DNA of 12,070 nucleotides, taken from contig JAIPJR010000074.1 of assembly GCA_021734045.1 (NCBI GenBank), positions 1-12,070 on the forward strand. The letters are read 5' to 3'. Below are positions 3,901-12,070 of the stretch, piece after piece. The position numbers were made by a program, and so were the translations under genes. The DNA is from Fidelibacterota bacterium. Its GTDB lineage: Bacteria > Fidelibacterota > UBA8477. Position 1 is the stretch's first letter. Each line of letters opens with the position of its first letter. The notes beneath the pieces were generated by a model, which saw only the letters and a list, made by a program, of their open reading frames with translations, was not told the DNA's origin and made no database searches.

Positions 3901-4162
3901 AGTGGCAGCGGTAAATAAGGTTATTGAAGGCCGTCCCCATGTGGTGGATGCTATTAAAAATGGTGAGATTCACTTGGTGGTGAACACACCGTTGGGTGAG
4001 GCGGCGCGGGAGGATGAGTTTGAAATCGGCCGGGCAGCCATTCGCGGTAAAATTCCGGTGATTACCACATTATCAGGTGCCAGAGCAGCTTTGCGGGGCA
4101 TTCGACGGCTCATGTCCCAATCACTGAAGGTCTTTAATCTGCAAGAACTTTTCCCGGATTAG
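971..4162 (+). CDS. carB: Carbamoyl-phosphate synthetase large (ammonia) subunit
   Basis: CarB makes carbamoyl phosphate from bicarbonate, two ATP and the ammonia delivered by CarA. The protein is about 1063 residues, normal for the family (E. coli about 1073). Its two homologous ATP-grasp halves are clear: the first opens with [19 protein letters not shown] and the second with [17 protein letters not shown] (base 2630 onward). The oligomerisation domain lies between them. A C-terminal MGS-like allosteric domain begins near residue 932 (base 3764); its TRGT, VNKV and VVNTP segments match where UMP binds in E. coli CarB. I prefer ATG 971, giving MPKRTDI as in most CarB proteins, over the in-frame ATG 965. 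GGA at 963-965 is only a weak ribosome site. The gene overlaps carA by 8 bases, so coupled translation is likely. The TAG stop overlaps the stop of the convergent gene. Confidence 0.97.
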
Positions 4163-4911
4163 TACCTGCGGCGACTTCCCGCATGCCGACGGGTTGGTAG
4201 TGTGGGATAGGGCGTGTGTTTGTGGCGTTCGTCTTCAGCATCCTCCTCTGAGTTACTACGATAGATTCTCAAACGCCACAGGTAGAACCCGAACAGCGCC
4301 GCCAACAAGCCAAGTTCGATTATGATGATTAAAAATTTCCGTTGGTATTTATTGAACTCATGCAAGTAAGCACCCTCCAGGGTGATACTGATTCCACCGG
4401 CGAAATCGCCTAACTGCAGCCCTTCCTTTGGGAAACCGGTGGCGTCCAACTCGCCCGCCGGATCGCCGTGACATTCGAGGCAACCTACATTGGCACGCAG
4501 TGGCGCCATAAAACGGAATTGGGGATCCGCGCCTCTTTCCACACGCTCATATTCAAATGTGTAAGGTTTCATGGGATTGGATTCCAGAAACTCCAGGCTT
4601 TTTAATTCCCACGTATCGGGTTTGTGTTCAGGATTCCGTACCTTGAAATTGGTGAATTTAATGGTGAAGGGGGTTGCCATGTTATACATGTTGGCGGTCT
4701 GCAAGGCAGCAGTAAAATCGCTGTTATAATTCATGAGAACCACCAATGACTGGGCTGTCTCCACTGAACTGGAAAGATAGACGTCCTGTTCCATTTTGGA
4801 TCGTGACGAATAGAAATGAACGAAGGTCAATATTGTTGCTACAAACAGAATGGTGGTAAAAAACAGTACGATATTTTCATCATTTCGTCGGTTGAAATCT
4901 ATGTTTGCCAT
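4159..4911 (-). CDS. Membrane-anchored Tll0287-like (DUF3365) c-type heme domain protein
   Basis: This 250-residue protein has a hydrophobic segment at about 13-33, a periplasmic domain at about 35-190, a second membrane segment at about 193-212 and a short, charged C-terminal tail. The tail is acidic (SEEDAEDE), then His/Arg-rich. The middle domain resembles the Tll0287-like/DUF3365 family: a [12 protein letters not shown] segment (91-102), a FMAPLRA strand, then CLECHGDP with a single CxxCH heme-attachment motif (144-148), followed by a Gly-rich GDFAGGISI strand. Family knowledge suggests PAS-like periplasmic sensing or redox domains with covalent heme; the ligand here is unknown. No HAMP, kinase or cyclase output domain is present, so it may act with partners. 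It is the last gene of the minus-strand run, 13 bases after the SUMF1-like gene, with AAGGA 10 bases before the ATG. The domain call is fairly confident; the role is not known. Confidence 0.8.
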
Positions 4912-4921
4912 GATTCATTCA

Positions 4922-4926
4922 TCCTT
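4922..4926 (-). promoter_or_regulatory. Ribosome binding site of the c-heme gene
   Basis: On the minus strand AAGGA lies 10 bases before the ATG at 4911 and overlaps the TAA stop of the upstream SUMF1-like gene (TAAGGA). This supports the chosen start and suggests coupled translation. It is the clearest Shine-Dalgarno-like site in the window. Confidence 0.6.
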
Positions 4927-6058
4927 AATTGGATTTTTCCGGGGACTTGGCACACCGGAATCCGATGAGCTCATTTCGCAATTCTGGTCGGGCAGAGGAA
5001 CGGTAGCTTGTTCGCAGCCGGTCGCGTATGTCAAACCAACTGCCACCGCGGACACTGCGTTCCACACCCCCTGGTGGTCCCTGGGGATTTTGGGGGACAT
5101 CCCACTTATAATAGTCTTTAAAATACCAGTCCGAGACCCATTCGAAGACATTGCCAGCCATATCATACACCCCAAAGGGGCTGGGGCTGTTGACGGTCTT
5201 AAACCCGCGGTAGGTTTGACCGTTGTAAAACCCAATGGGCGTGGGTCCCATTTCATACGGGTCCCCGCTGTTGCGGTAATTGGCGATGGCACCGGTTATC
5301 CTGTCGCCGGTGGGGAAGTTGCGGTCATCTGTTGCGCCACGGGCGGCTTTTTCCCACTCTGCTTCAGTGGGCAGGCGCTTCCCGACCCAATTGGCATAAG
5401 CCTGAGCCGCATACCAGCTGACATAAGCCACCGGGAAATCTTCTTTACCCGGTGCGGCTTGAAATTCACCATAGCGCCGGACAATACTCATCTGATTGTC
5501 ATAGAATCCGCTGCCCCGGGCATTCAGGAAATTGGCAAACTGGCTGTTGGTCACCTCGTACTTGTCGATCCAATAGCCATCCAGATAAATGGTTTTTTGT
5601 GGTTCTTCACTCTGGGAATATCCCGGACGACTTCCTTGCGTGAAAGGTCCGGCGGGTATCCAGACCATGTCGCCCATGACCACATTCACATCCACAATGG
5701 TCTCCAGCATCCGGTTGCTATCCGCTAAAACCATACGGGTGTAGCCCACTTGATGCCCAAAAATCATCCCGTTGGAATCGGCTTCACAAATGGTGGAATC
5801 TTCGCTCAAGAATTTGACAGGTGCGCCCAGCACCAGCTCGCCGTATCGATTGAGTGTGAAGGCATCAATGCGTGTGCTGTCGCCCACCGCCAGTGACAGG
5901 GAGGTGGGACGGGCATAAATTCTAAAGGGGGTAGAGTCTTCCGGTGGAAACCGGTCCATGGTCATCAACGGCTGCATAAACCAATAGTTGATGATAATTA
6001 ATAAGCCCATGATTGTGAAAATCAGGGTGAAAATTACAGTAATGTTCAACTTCCGCAT
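4925..6058 (-). CDS. Membrane-anchored Ig-like (BIG2) plus SUMF1/FGE-fold protein, catalytic cysteines absent
   Basis: The 377-residue protein has an N-terminal membrane anchor (about 7-28, no lipobox Cys), a bacterial Ig-like domain (about 48-127, with LSLAVGDSTRI and an SNGMIFGHQVGYTRM segment as in BIG2) and a formylglycine-generating-enzyme/SUMF1-type domain (about 130-371). SUMF1 hallmarks are MVWIPAGPFTQGS, KRLPTEAEWEKAARGA, DMAGNVFEWVSDW, SVRGGSW and a terminal IGFRCA. True FGE enzymes carry two active-site cysteines just after RGGSW; here that stretch is FDIRDRLRTSYR, and the only cysteines are 91 and 369. Sulfatase activation is therefore unlikely. A structural or ligand-binding role is more likely, as proposed for SUMF1-fold GldK of the type IX secretion machinery, though this is not clearly GldK. 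Predicted topology places the bulk in the periplasm. No convincing ribosome site precedes the ATG; the hydrophobic segment right after it supports this start. Confidence 0.85.
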   Translation of the reverse strand: MRKLNITVIFTLIFTIMGLLIIINYWFMQPLMTMDRFPPEDSTPFRIYARPTSLSLAVGDSTRIDAFTLNRYGELVLGAPVKFLSEDSTICEADSNGMIFGHQVGYTRMVLADSNRMLETIVDVNVVMGDMVWIPAGPFTQGSRPGYSQSEEPQKTIYLDGYWIDKYEVTNSQFANFLNARGSGFYDNQMSIVRRYGEFQAAPGKEDFPVAYVSWYAAQAYANWVGKRLPTEAEWEKAARGATDDRNFPTGDRITGAIANYRNSGDPYEMGPTPIGFYNGQTYRGFKTVNSPSPFGVYDMAGNVFEWVSDWYFKDYYKWDVPQNPQGPPGGVERSVRGGSWFDIRDRLRTSYRSSARPELRNELIGFRCAKSPEKSN

Positions 6059-6097
6059 GGGCGTGATTAGGTGCTCTATTCTCGTTGTGACCGGCGA

Positions 6098-9000
6098 TTA
6101 CCGCCAATCAAAGATAGATTCGCTAAACTTGAGATGAAAGCTGATATAAAAGTTATGGAGCTGGTAATTGAGGTAGGAGAAGTCCGGATCGTCGTCCTCA
6201 AAATTTTTGAAGATATAGCCCAGGCCTAATTGGGTATTGGTCATCACCAGATAATTCATTTCCGCCGCCGCACCGGATTGCCAGCCACCGGCAGGCGTAA
6301 TGTGCATATAACGCAGATCCACGGCGGAACTCCATTTCAAAGTCCAATCCAATTCAACCCGTCCGGAAATAAAATTGGTTACCACCTTATCACTCAACAG
6401 CCCCTCTTCGTCAAATACCCGACGGGTCGCGATACGGGTACCCAGTTCTAACCAGCGGATCGGCTGGTAATAGCCATGCACCGAAAAGATTAGCCGGTCT
6501 TCACGGGTCGGCTGGTCCACATGGGTATTCTGGTCGGTAAGAAAGGCAATTTTTCCAACGCTGTTAAATTTATCCATCAGGTCCGGTCGGTAGGCCATTC
6601 CGAGCTGATAGACACCGTGGCGCGCATAAGTATCCCCAGCTTTGAGATAATTCACATTCATGTGGTCCAGCTTGATAATGGTGCTGAGCCCATGGAGGAG
6701 CTTGAAGTCGGTTGCCATCCCCACAACCAGCTTATGTGTGGTGGGATCGCGGCGGAATTCAAATTTTCCCATACTTTTCCAAGGCATCTCCGGCAGGTAC
6801 TCAAATGAAAATGCAAAAGCGTCATGGTCGGGGGTGGGAACTTCCAGTGAGTCAATGGTCGCCGTACTCTCATACCCCAGGTTCAGAGTTAGATCCGGAT
6901 GCACTTGCCATTTGTTGCGAATGCCAATACTGGCGCGGTTGCGCGATTCGCCGGTTGCGCCACCAATTTCATATTTTCCCAAAATCTCCGTATTTTCCGC
7001 AACCTTTGAATCGAATCCCAGTATGGTCTGGTTTTTCCCGCCATCCTGATGTAAGAGCCGGTGTTTTAAGTACATGGAGAGCTTTTCAGACAAATCATAT
7101 TGAAATGCCAGGGCAGTGTTGGTGGGTTTCACCAAATCCGCATTACCCAGATTCTGTTCATGGGCTAGTGAGCCTTTAAGTTTTGTCGTAATCTGGTAGC
7201 TGAGGACACCGGATAATAAGCGCGAGTTCTCGTCGCTGAATGCCAGACTGTCCGGCATCCATTTTTCTCGCAGCGCATCCTCAAATCCCAGCTTCGATGT
7301 GAGCCGATTTTGCAGGAAAGTCTTTTCATAATCCACACTTAGAACATTCACGCGGTTTTCATTTACCGTGCCCACCCGGTTAAGCTGATGATAATATTCA
7401 GATCTCAAGGAGCCGTATGACCTTGATTCAAGACTGGCCTGTGCCCCATATTTTTCCGAGCCTCCTTCATCAAAACCAGCGCCGCTTTGGGAGGGATTGA
7501 CAAAACTGCTGTCCACCTTTCGATAGTAGCCATCCAGCTTCATAAAGTTGAGAAAATTGAATTTCACTTCCGTTCGATAAGCCTGGCCGGTGGTGGCCTG
7601 CCCGTTGATTCCCGGCACGCCGGATTCAGCGAATTCACCCTTAATCGTCAAACCGCGCATGATGGGAATTTCCCCGTCCACACCATAAAGTGTGTAAGCT
7701 GAAGGCGCTCGCTCTTCGTAAATCAGGGTGGAACCCATGTTTACGCGATTTCCAAATGTCCCGCTGTATCGAACGCCGCCGATGGGCGTTTCACTGCGGG
7801 AGGTCTGATATTCATAGGATGCGACGATGAACATAGGATTGCCGTTGACATCCATGCTCCTCACCGGCTGCTTGAACATGAGCGTTCCTTGGATATAATT
7901 GATGTCATAATCCTGAAAACGCACCAAATCCTGAGAGCGCAGGACAATTTCCGGATGATAGCGATCCCGGGTTTCCAGACGGACTTTATCCGAATACTTG
8001 GTGATGTCACTCTTATTTAAGAAATAGAACCCGGAAATACCTTCGCCTCGAATCTCGTCCATGCGGAGTTGCCTGTTGGTCAGCGTAGCGAAAGATTGGA
8101 GTGAATGGTTTTTGCCCTGCCAGTTCGTGTAAATGCCATTAAACGAGCGATTGTAAGCGGTGAATTCACTGCCAATCAGATTGGTATTGAAATCACCAAC
8201 CAACGCGAAGGAGTCATCCCGCTCGATTTTGGCGAACAGCTTGGAACGTGTCTGGGCGTCATACCGCAATTCACTGGCATCGCCAAAAATGGGGTATTGG
8301 TCGTTGGGATCAATGTCATCGAATAGCTGGTTATCCTTGTCACGCTCCGAATCAAAGGAAGCTGTGAGCTTGTATTTTTCTGCTAAGGAGCCTTTGGCAT
8401 AAAAAGCCAGCCGCCCTTGATAATAGTTATCCGTTGCATCAATAGCCGGCAGATCGGTATTAGCCTGTGGGCTTTGGGTGAACGAGAGATTTCCATCAGC
8501 CGTTCCCACCAGAATAAAGGGTTCAGCGGGTACGGAAAAACGAATAGGGATTTGGAAAAATTCCTGATTGATGGAAAGCTCCAGGATACCATCACCTGAA
8601 GTGTTGGGCGATTGAATCATGACACTCACCACACCATTTTTAACCGGGACCTGCTGACCGGGATTCACACGGTCTGCATCATCGGTCACGATTCTACCCT
8701 TGGTAATTTTGACCGAGATATGTTTAACCGAAGTGACCGAATATCCCCAATCATCCGCCAGTTTGACCTGAATTTCACGCTGGGTGTACCCGTCAGCCGG
8801 GATCACCAGATTATCCTCATATGGCAGTGCTTTTTTCGGTGGGCCAATGATGTGGATATCGCGCTCAGCAGAGAAAATGCGATTCCGGGCACCGGGTGCT
8901 TCCACTTTGATATGGACGGGCCCGCGCGGCACTTCCACATTCAGGAAATCATAAATACCATCAATCCGAATGGTCCCCTTCGCTGATTCCTCCTGATTGA

Positions 9001-9151
9001 TATACAGCGTGGCTTCCTCGCCCGGTTTACCAATCACGGTGACAGCAATCCGGTCGGAGGTACTGACGGCGTTGGTTGGGGGTGAAACGATGACCATCTG
9101 CGCCCGTACCATACCTGTCAGGAGCACAAGACTCATGAAAAACCGGATCAT
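6098..9151 (-). CDS. Large outer-membrane beta-barrel protein with Ig-like N-terminal domains
   Basis: This is an exported protein of about 1017 residues. From ATG 9151 it begins with a typical signal peptide (MIRFFMSLVLLTGMVRA, then Q). In-frame alternatives are ATG 9172 and TTG 9184; the TTG would overlap the upstream gene's TGA by 4 bases. I favour 9151 for its short n-region and a weak AGGG upstream. Residues about 20-210 look like two beta-sandwich (Ig-like) domains. The rest, from about 240, alternates amphipathic strands and polar turns as in an outer-membrane barrel. Distinctive segments are YPIFGDASELRYDAQTRSKL and FALVGDFNT, resembling the GD-rich openings of barrels found beside DUF11/OmpA proteins. 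I see no TonB box or plug motif. The penultimate strand FYISFHLKF is followed by a short SESIFDWR extension. Barrel location is likely; substrate or function is unknown. Confidence 0.8.
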   Translation of the reverse strand: MIRFFMSLVLLTGMVRAQMVIVSPPTNAVSTSDRIAVTVIGKPGEEATLYINQEESAKGTIRIDGIYDFLNVEVPRGPVHIKVEAPGARNRIFSAERDIHIIGPPKKALPYEDNLVIPADGYTQREIQVKLADDWGYSVTSVKHISVKITKGRIVTDDADRVNPGQQVPVKNGVVSVMIQSPNTSGDGILELSINQEFFQIPIRFSVPAEPFILVGTADGNLSFTQSPQANTDLPAIDATDNYYQGRLAFYAKGSLAEKYKLTASFDSERDKDNQLFDDIDPNDQYPIFGDASELRYDAQTRSKLFAKIERDDSFALVGDFNTNLIGSEFTAYNRSFNGIYTNWQGKNHSLQSFATLTNRQLRMDEIRGEGISGFYFLNKSDITKYSDKVRLETRDRYHPEIVLRSQDLVRFQDYDINYIQGTLMFKQPVRSMDVNGNPMFIVASYEYQTSRSETPIGGVRYSGTFGNRVNMGSTLIYEERAPSAYTLYGVDGEIPIMRGLTIKGEFAESGVPGINGQATTGQAYRTEVKFNFLNFMKLDGYYRKVDSSFVNPSQSGAGFDEGGSEKYGAQASLESRSYGSLRSEYYHQLNRVGTVNENRVNVLSVDYEKTFLQNRLTSKLGFEDALREKWMPDSLAFSDENSRLLSGVLSYQITTKLKGSLAHEQNLGNADLVKPTNTALAFQYDLSEKLSMYLKHRLLHQDGGKNQTILGFDSKVAENTEILGKYEIGGATGESRNRASIGIRNKWQVHPDLTLNLGYESTATIDSLEVPTPDHDAFAFSFEYLPEMPWKSMGKFEFRRDPTTHKLVVGMATDFKLLHGLSTIIKLDHMNVNYLKAGDTYARHGVYQLGMAYRPDLMDKFNSVGKIAFLTDQNTHVDQPTREDRLIFSVHGYYQPIRWLELGTRIATRRVFDEEGLLSDKVVTNFISGRVELDWTLKWSSAVDLRYMHITPAGGWQSGAAAEMNYLVMTNTQLGLGYIFKNFEDDDPDFSYLNYQLHNFYISFHLKFSESIFDWR

Positions 9152-9180
9152 ATATGTGGAAATACCCTGCATCAGTAATA

Positions 9181-11283
9181 TCAATTCTTTTTCTTCACAA
9201 TGACGGTTTGCTCCAGCGATTTACCGTAGTACCGGTCCTTCATAATGGGCAGCACTTCAAAACGAGCCGCGTTTTCACCCGGACTTGTTTCCTCTATTTC
9301 CAGCATAAATTCCTTGCGAAACACACGGGGGTTCTCACCGACCGGGAATACCCAGGTGGATGCTTCAGCCTGTATGCCCGCAGCATCACCATTCTGGATG
9401 ACTAATCCCTCTGGTAACCGAACCGATACCTGTACCGAATCCACATCTTCATAATCAGTGAGTGCCAGGTTCAGCAGGTAAGGCGCGGGAATGCCCGGTT
9501 TTAGCGCGATGGATTGGGTGACCTTCCCTGAATCGGTTAATGCATGCTCTACCAGGATTCGGTAAGCCAGCGAGTCACGGGAGGCATCCACTTTCACCAC
9601 AAATTCCTGCTGGAAGTCAGAATTTACCAGTAACTCCACGCGCCGGTTTTTGGCGCGTCCGGCAGGTGTATCATTTCCGGCCACCGGATAGAGCGGCCCG
9701 TAGAAGCTGGTCTCAATCCGATCCCGGTCGATTGGGAAATGATCCAGCAGGTAATCTTTTACACTCTCCGCCCGGTTGCGCGAGAGCTGCATGTTATAGT
9801 CAAATGTTCCGGTATTGTCGGTGAATCCTTTGATGGTGATGGTGAAATCTTTCTGCCAGACCATGAAGTCGCCCAGTTTGTTCAACTCCATGTAAGCCTG
9901 GGAACGGAGTTGGGCGGAATTCAGATCGAAATTTGCCTCCTGCATATTGATTCGCAGCAGGGTCTCCTCGATTTGAGTAATCATGTTGGTTTGAAGAGCG
10001 GTGGTGGAGTCGCGGACACCGACGTCATTTAGGAAACCGATATAGCTCTTTGAGCTGGAAATGGTGGGAATCCGGCTGTGGTCATTGGGCTCCAGCGCAA
10101 ATTCGATGGACTGCAGCGTCTCTTCATCGGTCCAGGCCCCCAGGTACCAGATCGCTTCCGTTTCGGTCACCGCAACCGGCTCCAGCGGACGCCCCTTAAA
10201 GGATGCCGTATTGGGCTTATAGGTAAAGCCGTTGGGTAAAATTTCGTGGAATGTCACATCAGTGAGGCGGGCATTCCCCTTCTTCATCATATCCACACGG
10301 AAACGCAGCTCCTGATTGTAGGGCAGGTCTTCTTCCGGATTATGGAATATCATTTCCACACGGCGATTCAGGTGCTTGCCGTCTTCCGTCTCATTTGAGG
10401 CAATGGGTCTGGTCGGTCCGTAGCCATGAGTGGTAATGCGTTCCGCGGCAATTCCCATCTCATCCACGAGAAATTGCTTTATGGCTTCAGCCCGGGCTTT
10501 GGACAGTTGGAAATTGTCTTTATAGTTGCTGGCATCGGAAATGGGGACATCGTTAGTGTGGCCGTCAATCTCGATAATGACCTGTTTTTGCCATCTGAGG
10601 AAATCGCTGGCTTTGCGCAGGGCAGAGAATAATTCCGGCCGTAACTTGGCTTCTCCCGAGAGGAAGCCCAGTCTGAAAGTGGTTCGCCAGGGTTTGTAAA
10701 CCACCTGCCTGAAATCGGTAGTCAGTGGATGCTGGGTCAGGGTAAGCGTTGAGATTTCGGTAATCAACATAGCCATATCCACTTCCTGCTCAAGGGCAAA
10801 ATTGGCTTTGGCCATACCGCCGGGGGAGACATCCACCGCACGGGAAATGGCATCGCCCATAAAATCCGCCGAGTTCAGCAAGACATGGGTGCGTTCCGGC
10901 AGACTCTGCCGATTCACACGCAGGATATGCCGCCCGGGACGCACATTGGGTATGGAATACTTTCCGAATTCGTCGGTGACCACCCGAATACCCGTTTCCG
11001 TGATGAGTTCCACATCCCCGGCGGTGGGTTCTCCCGAATCGTGTTCACCATTTTGATTCAGGTCGAAATAGACTTTTCCAAAAATGAATCCCACATCCGA
11101 GATGAATCCGGGTTTAATCACCACTGTCGCCCGGGCTTCAGCACTTTGGGTGCGCGCGTCGGCTGGCGTGTTGGCAGTAGCGTAGGCGTAATTTTCATTC
11201 TCACCATATTTGGCATTCATACCCACCACGGCTCGGTATTTAATGACGCATTTTTCACCGGGCAGGACTCCGGTAATGACCAA
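9181..11283 (-). CDS. DUF11/SdrD_B/dual-OmpA mosaic protein, downstream part after a frameshift
   Basis: These 700 codons are the C-terminal part of a larger protein; TTG 11283 is not a real start, because the frame opens in the middle of a DUF11 repeat (GVLPGEKCVIKYRA). Domains in order: end of a DUF11 repeat (1-57); an SdrD_B-type domain (about 63-125) with the Ca-loop-like DLNQNGEHDSGEP; OmpA-like domain 1 (about 200-313, LSKARAEAI and LNRRVEM); a DUF11-like module (about 320-400); OmpA-like domain 2 (about 443-553, GFTDNTG, LSRNRAESV, KNRRVEL); and a beta-rich tail (about 560-700). OmpA-like domains bind peptidoglycan through an Asp and an Arg 15 residues later. Domain 2 has both (D489, R504); domain 1 has Asn244 at the Asp position, with D245 next. 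The protein is probably periplasmic, tethering the envelope complex to the cell wall. Its stop is directly followed by the barrel gene, so the two are probably co-expressed. Confidence 0.85.
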   Translation of the reverse strand: MVITGVLPGEKCVIKYRAVVGMNAKYGENENYAYATANTPADARTQSAEARATVVIKPGFISDVGFIFGKVYFDLNQNGEHDSGEPTAGDVELITETGIRVVTDEFGKYSIPNVRPGRHILRVNRQSLPERTHVLLNSADFMGDAISRAVDVSPGGMAKANFALEQEVDMAMLITEISTLTLTQHPLTTDFRQVVYKPWRTTFRLGFLSGEAKLRPELFSALRKASDFLRWQKQVIIEIDGHTNDVPISDASNYKDNFQLSKARAEAIKQFLVDEMGIAAERITTHGYGPTRPIASNETEDGKHLNRRVEMIFHNPEEDLPYNQELRFRVDMMKKGNARLTDVTFHEILPNGFTYKPNTASFKGRPLEPVAVTETEAIWYLGAWTDEETLQSIEFALEPNDHSRIPTISSSKSYIGFLNDVGVRDSTTALQTNMITQIEETLLRINMQEANFDLNSAQLRSQAYMELNKLGDFMVWQKDFTITIKGFTDNTGTFDYNMQLSRNRAESVKDYLLDHFPIDRDRIETSFYGPLYPVAGNDTPAGRAKNRRVELLVNSDFQQEFVVKVDASRDSLAYRILVEHALTDSGKVTQSIALKPGIPAPYLLNLALTDYEDVDSVQVSVRLPEGLVIQNGDAAGIQAEASTWVFPVGENPRVFRKEFMLEIEETSPGENAARFEVLPIMKDRYYGKSLEQTVIVKKKN

Positions 11284-12070
11284 ATCATCTCCTGCTGACC
11301 GCGTTCAGATTGAATCACCAGCGGGTCAGTCAATGGTGCGGGACCGCAATAAGTCGTGTTGGATTTATATTTAAAACCCAACGGCATTCGGTCGGTGAGA
11401 TCAATGGCGGTGAGCGAATCCTGATTGGAGCGATTCTGAACGGTAACAGTGTAGGTGAGAATGTCACCACGCTGGGCGATCCGCTTATTTACGCGCTTCT
11501 CGACACTGAGATAGGGGACGATGATTTTGGTGGTGGCACGGCTGCGACTGTCAGCTGTGGTGGATGTACTGTCATTGGCATTGTAAACAGTAGCAGCGTT
11601 GGAGATGAATGTGACACCCGCCGGTAAGTCATCCCGGATGCGGGTCATGAAAACCACAGAATCCATGGCATTATGGGCGATGCCATTCCGTTTGAAAACC
11701 AACCGGTTATCAGTAGAATCAAAGCTGAATAGCGTCATGCCGTTGGAGGCCTGGAGCGTACCATTAATGTATACGATTTCCGGGGGTAAGTTATCGGATA
11801 TCCGGACGGGAACACTATCGGGCAGGGCGCTCAGAGCGCTGCCATAATAAATTCGATAAGTGAGGGTATCTCCTAATTGTGCCAGAACTTTATCCACCCG
11901 TTTATAGGTGTAGAACTGCGCCTGGGTCAGCGCCAGGTTGGCATTCACCACATAGGTCCCCGTATTACCCAGCGTTAAACTAAGGGCATCGTCGCTGAAT
12001 GACCCTGAACCGGCGTATTCCGTGCGCAGCGTGTAGTCACCGGGTAATAGGTTGGTAAAAAAGTAAAATC
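11217..12070 (-). CDS. DUF11/SdrD_B mosaic protein, upstream part, open at the window edge and frameshifted
   Basis: The frame is open from the right edge of the window (first full codon at 12068), so the true start lies outside; GTG 11951 is internal. The visible part starts in the last strands of an SdrD_B or carboxypeptidase-regulatory-like beta domain (NLLPGDYTLRTEYAG), followed by two DUF11 repeats. Repeat 1 opens with YKRVDKVLAQLGDTLTYRI and includes a VRISDNLPPEIVYINGT segment. Repeat 2 opens with LSVEKRVNKRIAQRGDILTY and includes DLTDRMPLGFKYKSNT. The second repeat is cut by the frameshift near 11270; residues after EMIWSLP in this frame are out-of-frame sequence. Joined to the downstream part it gives about 960 residues in the window alone. 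DUF11 repeats are Ig-like stalk modules common in large envelope proteins. It is the first visible gene of the four-gene minus-strand run. Confidence 0.8.
   Translation of the reverse strand, partial: FYFFTNLLPGDYTLRTEYAGSGSFSDDALSLTLGNTGTYVVNANLALTQAQFYTYKRVDKVLAQLGDTLTYRIYYGSALSALPDSVPVRISDNLPPEIVYINGTLQASNGMTLFSFDSTDNRLVFKRNGIAHNAMDSVVFMTRIRDDLPAGVTFISNAATVYNANDSTSTTADSRSRATTKIIVPYLSVEKRVNKRIAQRGDILTYTVTVQNRSNQDSLTAIDLTDRMPLGFKYKSNTTYCGPAPLTDPLVIQSERGQQEMIWSLPESCPVKNASLNTEPWWV
11262..11283 (-). other. One-base frameshift within the DUF11/OmpA gene
   Basis: The upstream frame reads EMIWSLP and then drifts into ESCPVKNAS, ending at a TGA at 11219-11217. The next frame reads GVLPGEKCVIKYRA across the same bases. 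On the minus strand the sequence is TTACCGGAGTCC. One extra G in the GG at 11271-11270 would restore a continuous EMIWSLPGVLPGEKCVIKY, which matches the usual end of a DUF11 repeat (W, then LPGE, then a hydrophobic strand). No slippery heptamer is evident, so a sequencing or assembly error, or a real mutation, is more likely than programmed frameshifting. Confidence 0.85.

Follow-up and report, generated by a model that had tools for sequence, protein, structure and literature searches.

A DUF11/OmpA wall protein and its barrel-type neighbour: probable base and port of a DUF11 surface-fibre system in Neomarinimicrobiota

The window spans a whole contig (C41; 12,070 bp) from a Neomarinimicrobiota MAG of 2.5 Mb (genome G000). 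Our analysis suggests that it probably carries the base and port of a widespread surface-fibre system of the DUF11 (CLIPPER) type, whose genes are ordered A-B-C-D-E. The gene set, the division of a DUF11 domain between subunits, the link between D and E, and the OmpA domains are all shown at the level of sequence. More tentatively, we put forward as a possibility that these genes build a Gram-negative organelle which polymerizes via split DUF11/CLIPPER domains, has its joints locked by a spontaneous interchain Lys-Asn bond, leaves the cell through a dedicated new barrel family, and is anchored to the wall via OmpA domains.

Gene content of the window

The plus strand of the window carries carAB, and the minus strand carries the Tll0287-like, SUMF1-fold, E and D genes. 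The Tll0287-like gene (4159..4911, minus strand; PF11845, E=9.5e-20, 71.9 bits, cut-off 24.1) encodes 250 aa comprising a TM helix, a periplasmic c-heme domain with the motif GCLECH, a second TM helix and a short tail. The SUMF1-fold gene (4925..6058, minus strand) encodes a 377 aa protein with an N-terminal anchor, an Ig-like segment and an FGE-sulfatase domain (PF03781, E=5.5e-57) without the catalytic cysteines. E (6098..9184, minus strand) is a large outer-membrane barrel-type protein of 1028 aa, with a signal peptide and N-terminal Ig-like domains. D is split between two frames: its 3' part (9181..11267, minus strand) comprises an SdrD/CarboxypepD_reg-like domain, a first OmpA domain, a DUF11-like domain, a second OmpA domain and a C-terminal region, and the preceding part (11268..12070, minus strand) comprises DUF11 domains in a different frame and ends at the contig end. 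The intergenic gaps are 13 bp (Tll0287/SUMF1), 39 bp (SUMF1/E), and either -4 bp or ~29 bp (E/D), depending on the start codon. Pfam matches and gaps mostly confirm the initial annotation's four closely spaced minus-strand genes with heme, SUMF1, barrel-type and two-OmpA products. Promoter-like and terminator-like sites were no more frequent in the window than in shuffled sequence.

The wall protein is not encoded by one intact gene in this assembly: the gene runs off the contig, and its frame is interrupted by a 4-bp deletion when compared with the sister genome. The ORFs at 9181-11283(-) and 11217-12068(-) are halves of one gene that forms a single open frame in the sister genome L031, where 4 bp absent from the window at about 11267/11268 are present. 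This frameshift is either real or an assembly error. Given the continuous frame in L031, 11283 is not the true start of D. The contigs of the window and of L031 both end inside D, and full-length D proteins in relatives comprise about 1,700-2,300 aa. The 3' ORF contains two PF00691 OmpA domains (E=5.4e-39, Pfam), located at about 10342-10665 and about 9628-9951 on the minus strand, with a DUF11-like domain placed between them by PF01345 at about 10117-10326 (minus strand). The upstream ORF matches DUF11 (PF01345) with E=3.5e-14 and 53.5 bits (cut-off 24.6), and its relatives score up to 272.7 bits.

In D proteins of this genus, the motif GFTDNTG...LSxxRA with the usual wall-binding Asp is retained solely by the second OmpA domain; in the first, Asn replaces this residue (GHTN). 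OmpA domains are absent from D of L029 and from D of cyanobacteria. In one cyanobacterial case an OmpA domain lies inside E, and in Acinetobacter it is encoded by a separate gene; in at least those two, the wall anchor is thus kept by other means. The anchor therefore seems to have moved among D, E and a separate gene across lineages. In Synechococcus, the C-terminal half of E (L055 8350-12981) contains a weak OmpA domain. We propose D as the wall-anchored base of the putative fibre.

The sequence pattern of E and its homology point to an outer-membrane barrel; AlphaFold modeling with four sequences gave a pLDDT of 35. The window copy matches no Pfam family significantly, including the usher family PF00577, and homologs from other phyla match no Pfam or NCBIfam barrel family above cut-off. 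A profile of E likewise returned no matches against all PDB chains or against viral contigs. Its adjacency and fusion to D and its barrel-like sequence suggest that E is the port of the proposed DUF11 fibre.

D and E form the conserved core

Homologs of E were found in 23 of 60 relatives and, by profile search, in 27 of 245 genomes of the phylum, where they fall in three families (29 genomes were listed, from which two weak fragments were left out). D lies directly before E in every locus with enough contig (~20 loci), and their ends usually overlap by 1-30 bp, the window copy, L031, L033 and L034 each showing an overlap of 4 bp. The pairing extends beyond the phylum: E homologs occur on cyanobacterial and proteobacterial plasmids, D-E pairs are found in Sinorhizobium, Pseudochrobactrum and Eleftheria, and overlap or fusion of the two genes is seen in three phyla. 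Genes of the A/B/C type accompany E on plasmids of Synechococcus NIES-970, Kovacikia and Acinetobacter, the last of which has D and E fused. In the Acinetobacter haemolyticus plasmid (L054 9067-15093), the fused D-E protein of 2,008 aa is autotransporter-like with a very large barrel; around it lie small DUF11 genes, as well as OmpA in a gene of its own. Within the phylum, PF01345 scored above cut-off in all eight tested genomes with E and in 1 of 28 without it, a co-occurrence that is phylogenetically nested, the carriers being related, and that fits one system.

The SUMF1 and Tll0287 genes show a narrower distribution. The start of SUMF1 lies 39, 39 and 42 bp behind E in the three genus genomes, and their constant place in this one genus suggests co-expression. 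No case of SUMF1 or Tll0287 behind D-E was found in the other two Neomarinimicrobiota families; outside the genus, the nearest homologs of both lie on other contigs, those of Tll0287 mostly within longer proteins. The conservation of D-E and the restriction of SUMF1/Tll0287 to one genus identify D-E as the core and the four-gene set as a genus-level arrangement, with SUMF1 and the heme gene added in this lineage. The initial annotation's view of the four genes as a system with one component per envelope layer thus does not describe an evolutionary unit. It had proposed that the idea would fail if homologs were rarely adjacent elsewhere, and adjacency in fact divides the set: D and E are neighbors in ~20 loci and in other phyla, and SUMF1 and Tll0287 are not.

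True formylglycine-generating enzymes possess paired active-site cysteines near the C-terminus. The SUMF1 protein lacks this pair (motif RGGSWFDIRDRLRTSYR), the corresponding C-terminal motif in the three genus members being RGGSWFDI[RP][DN]RLRT[SG]YRS, and is therefore probably not such an enzyme. The CxxCH heme motif (GCLECH) of the Tll0287 protein is retained in all three genus genomes, with TM segments flanking the domain. At the level of a guess, SUMF1 may perhaps act as a periplasmic adaptor and the heme protein as a redox sensor. Just one further FGE-domain gene was found in the window genome (L002 949-3253, G000:C10); it reads as EgtB-like and adjoins an EgtD-like gene, suggestive of ergothioneine synthesis.

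Upstream genes complete the set

The genes missing from the D-E unit lie upstream, outside the window. Full loci have the order A-B-C-D-E, and two or three DUF11 genes precede D in two other families as well as in G002 (L155), a member of the same genus that itself carries A-B-C-D. A proteins have a variable N-terminal part (e.g. a DUF6923-like propeller) followed by DUF11, B proteins comprise about 170-280 aa with a single DUF11 domain, and C proteins comprise about 290-650 aa. In the window genome, an A-like gene (L156 2340-3532) with an MG2-like domain and then DUF11 is cut off by the end of its contig (G000:C87), and is probably the missing start, or first gene, of the window operon. B proteins (e.g. 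L051 17633-18145, L155 8001-8609) share the motif [ST]H[IVL][KR]W in conserved form and are similar in cyanobacterial plasmids. The A-type protein of L155 (8525-10387) features an Asp/His/Glu-rich run (DDDDEHDDDDEH) that interrupts a DUF11 domain and is possibly metal-binding.

A DUF11 domain apparently divided between subunits

To compare domain ends we used a DUF11 model of 119 positions, made from 114 domains internal to D proteins. In A, B and C, which are small and secreted, the final DUF11 domain never extends beyond position 88 of this model: 19 of the 32 proteins align to positions 84-88 with 0-3 residues before the stop codon, and the remainder end earlier in a divergent loop. By comparison, 132 of 168 D-internal domains reach position 112 or more. 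A terminal strand pattern, chosen after inspection unlike the model-based position count, was present in 32/32 small DUF11 proteins, 0/20 D proteins and 1/164 other ORFs. The two missing strands are found elsewhere: C and D begin with them, immediately after the signal peptide, in the form GTxIxNxAxxxYxDxxG...SNxVxTxV. When the N-termini of 198 ORFs were scored with a model of the last 34 positions, scores >5 were obtained in C and D only, and the donor motif GTxIxNxAxxxY was absent from all 153 other ORFs. A and B are accordingly acceptors only, C is both acceptor and donor, and D is a donor only. Plasmid-borne proteins of Synechococcus, Kovacikia and Acinetobacter are laid out in the same way. 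The reciprocal pattern suggests strand complementation between subunits; alternatively, C could be self-complementing and monomeric. A single-sequence AlphaFold prediction of a C-type subunit from L029 gave a pLDDT of 38.5, too low to lend the joint structural support.

The register of the split agrees with a crystal structure. The profile of these DUF11 domains matches PDB 9ifr, a single DUF11 domain, as well as the grappling-hook protein GhpA. 9IFR contains a complete folded DUF11 domain (residues 708-828) with an isopeptide bond between Lys715 and Asn806 and Asp748 as the presumed catalytic residue (PMC12617251); these three residues correspond to K7, N98 and D41 of our model, respectively. 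It follows from this match that the strands absent from A, B and C are the last strands of the real fold, which bear the bond-forming Asn. We considered whether the split merely reflects the choice of border in a tandem repeat, and rejected this, since 9IFR shows one whole domain whose register agrees with ours and whose Asn lies near the C-terminal end. Moreover, whichever register is chosen, the strands are missing from A and B, and D has one set in surplus.

The residues of the isopeptide triad are unevenly distributed among the acceptors. The full Lys/Asp/Asn triad is present in 114 of 150 fully aligned domains internal to D. C acceptors keep both the L-x-L-x-K motif and the Asp; A acceptors keep the Lys in five of six cases, with Glu replacing Asp; and B has no aligned Lys at the acceptor site. 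In the A protein of L155, Ile and Gln occupy the positions of the Lys and Asp, and in the A-like protein encoded by the window genome Leu replaces the Lys. These A proteins and the residues of B indicate that covalent locking is not universal. Judged by these residues, such locking is predicted where C joins C or D, is possible for joints made by A, and is unlikely for those made by B.

A candidate fibre and competing explanations

In the assembly that we propose, the N-terminal hairpin of each subunit would fill the C-terminal groove of the preceding one. A, with its special N-terminal domain and acceptor end only, would cap the tip; C, with both donor and acceptor, would polymerize to give a fibre A-(C)n-D; and D, with its surplus donor, long DUF11 stalk and OmpA domains, would form the base held to peptidoglycan. 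E would be the outer-membrane barrel where the chain exits, and the single-domain acceptor B might serve as an initiator, alternative cap or escort. The joints may self-lock covalently without a sortase, in the manner of a natural SpyTag/SpyCatcher pair; the possibility arises since the Asn identified in 9IFR lies on the part supplied in trans, and both Lys and catalytic Asp are retained in C acceptors. Against the fibre stand the frameshift in D and the mostly unassembled state of A-C in the window genome, where function is predicted only.

The same genes might instead encode D as a stand-alone fibrillar adhesin displayed by E in the manner of a two-partner autotransporter, with A, B and C as separate, non-polymerizing adhesins or effectors using the same barrel. 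Monomeric fibrillar adhesins with DUF11 stalks and OmpA anchors are known (PMC12617251), and the D-E fusion in Acinetobacter resembles a type V autotransporter. We nevertheless consider this rather unlikely, as it gives no reason for the exact match between the strands missing from A, B and C alike and those that C and D have in surplus. More improbable still is a single trans-envelope complex of all four window genes, serving, for instance, secretion or a wall attachment under redox control. The four-gene order and short gaps are kept in all three genus genomes, with no excess of terminator-like sites between the genes, but the absence of SUMF1 and Tll0287 behind D-E in every other D-E genome makes them dispensable to the D-E system. 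Of the initial annotation's suggestion of trans-envelope surface assembly, the portion concerning the OmpA and barrel genes is thus retained and that concerning SUMF1 and heme genes as parts of the system is not; as to redox control of wall attachment, only the heme motif itself points to redox.

A type IX route, with the DUF11 proteins as cargo of a PorK/GldK-like ring protein represented by the SUMF1 protein, merits very little credence. The annotation had seen no other type IX component, which is correct within the window; the genome, however, encodes a SprA homolog, scoring 358 bits over its best segment against a cut-off of 200, on another contig (G000:C3). The best NCBIfam match of the SUMF1 protein is GldK, and since the genome's other FGE-domain gene is EgtB-like, it is left as the one SUMF1-fold candidate. 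However, its GldK (TIGR03525) score of 104.3 bits falls far below the equivalog cut-off of 350 and about equals its score against the unrelated EgtB model, and SUMF1 is not near D-E outside the genus. A-D end in DUF11 or OmpA-related regions with no recognised sorting domain, and were rejected as type IX cargo on this ground. A search for GldL/PorL in the window genome gave no matches, and no control matched either. The SprA homolog (L165, G000:C3:48-6008) comprises about 2,000 aa and is present in the window genome and both genus mates.

Relation to known systems

The proposed fibre shares its DUF11 stalk, Lys/Asp/Asn triad and OmpA-type anchor with the Gram-negative DUF11/CLIPPER adhesins, exemplified by Acinetobacter silvestris B9T28_05395, the source of 9IFR (PMC12617251). 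Those adhesins are single long polypeptides with intramolecular bonds, whereas here the domain is split across genes and a dedicated barrel gene is adjacent. The GhpA/GhlA grappling-hook proteins (9flp; PMC13319060) also form surface filaments from DUF11-type repeats, but there one giant chain spans the filament within a multimer and no split termini are described. The closest functional precedent is the archaeal thread of Sulfolobus acidocaldarius, Saci_0406 (PMC9715654), which features head-to-tail donor-strand complementation, a proposed intermolecular isopeptide bond and a putative cap. Archaeal threads differ in having no Pfam domain, outer membrane or barrel, and in a bond that joins subunits n and n+2 through an N-terminal Asp and an Asn; no relation at the sequence level is visible.

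Type V secretion shares a passenger and barrel that are fused or adjacent, although E differs in its ~800-aa barrel, which matches no Pfam/NCBIfam barrel family. Chaperone-usher pili resemble the proposed fibre in their Ig subunits, which are short of a strand given by the next subunit, in their donor-less tip, and in their outer-membrane barrel. Here, however, a two-strand segment rather than one strand would be donated, and no chaperone gene was recognised. The usher family PF00577 was found in none of the three genus genomes, with E. coli as a positive control. SpyTag/SpyCatcher is an engineered split of an isopeptide domain, in which the last strand is supplied in trans. Compared with such engineered tag/catcher pairs (see PMC5487036), the split described here is natural, concerns DUF11 (a CnaA-like domain), and apparently serves polymerization.

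Donor-strand fibres and DUF11 adhesins are thus already known, and the A-E combination is apparently undescribed: the papers searched, few of them from subscription journals, contain no description of this gene set. If our reading is correct, the fibre would represent a pilus-like assembly route in at least three phyla, based on a self-bonding domain, with no sortase needed and no usher seen. It would explain the clustering of DUF11 genes with a large unnamed barrel gene, and would provide a function for a barrel family without a Pfam/NCBIfam model. Moreover, its joints would offer natural covalent tag/catcher pairs for protein engineering.
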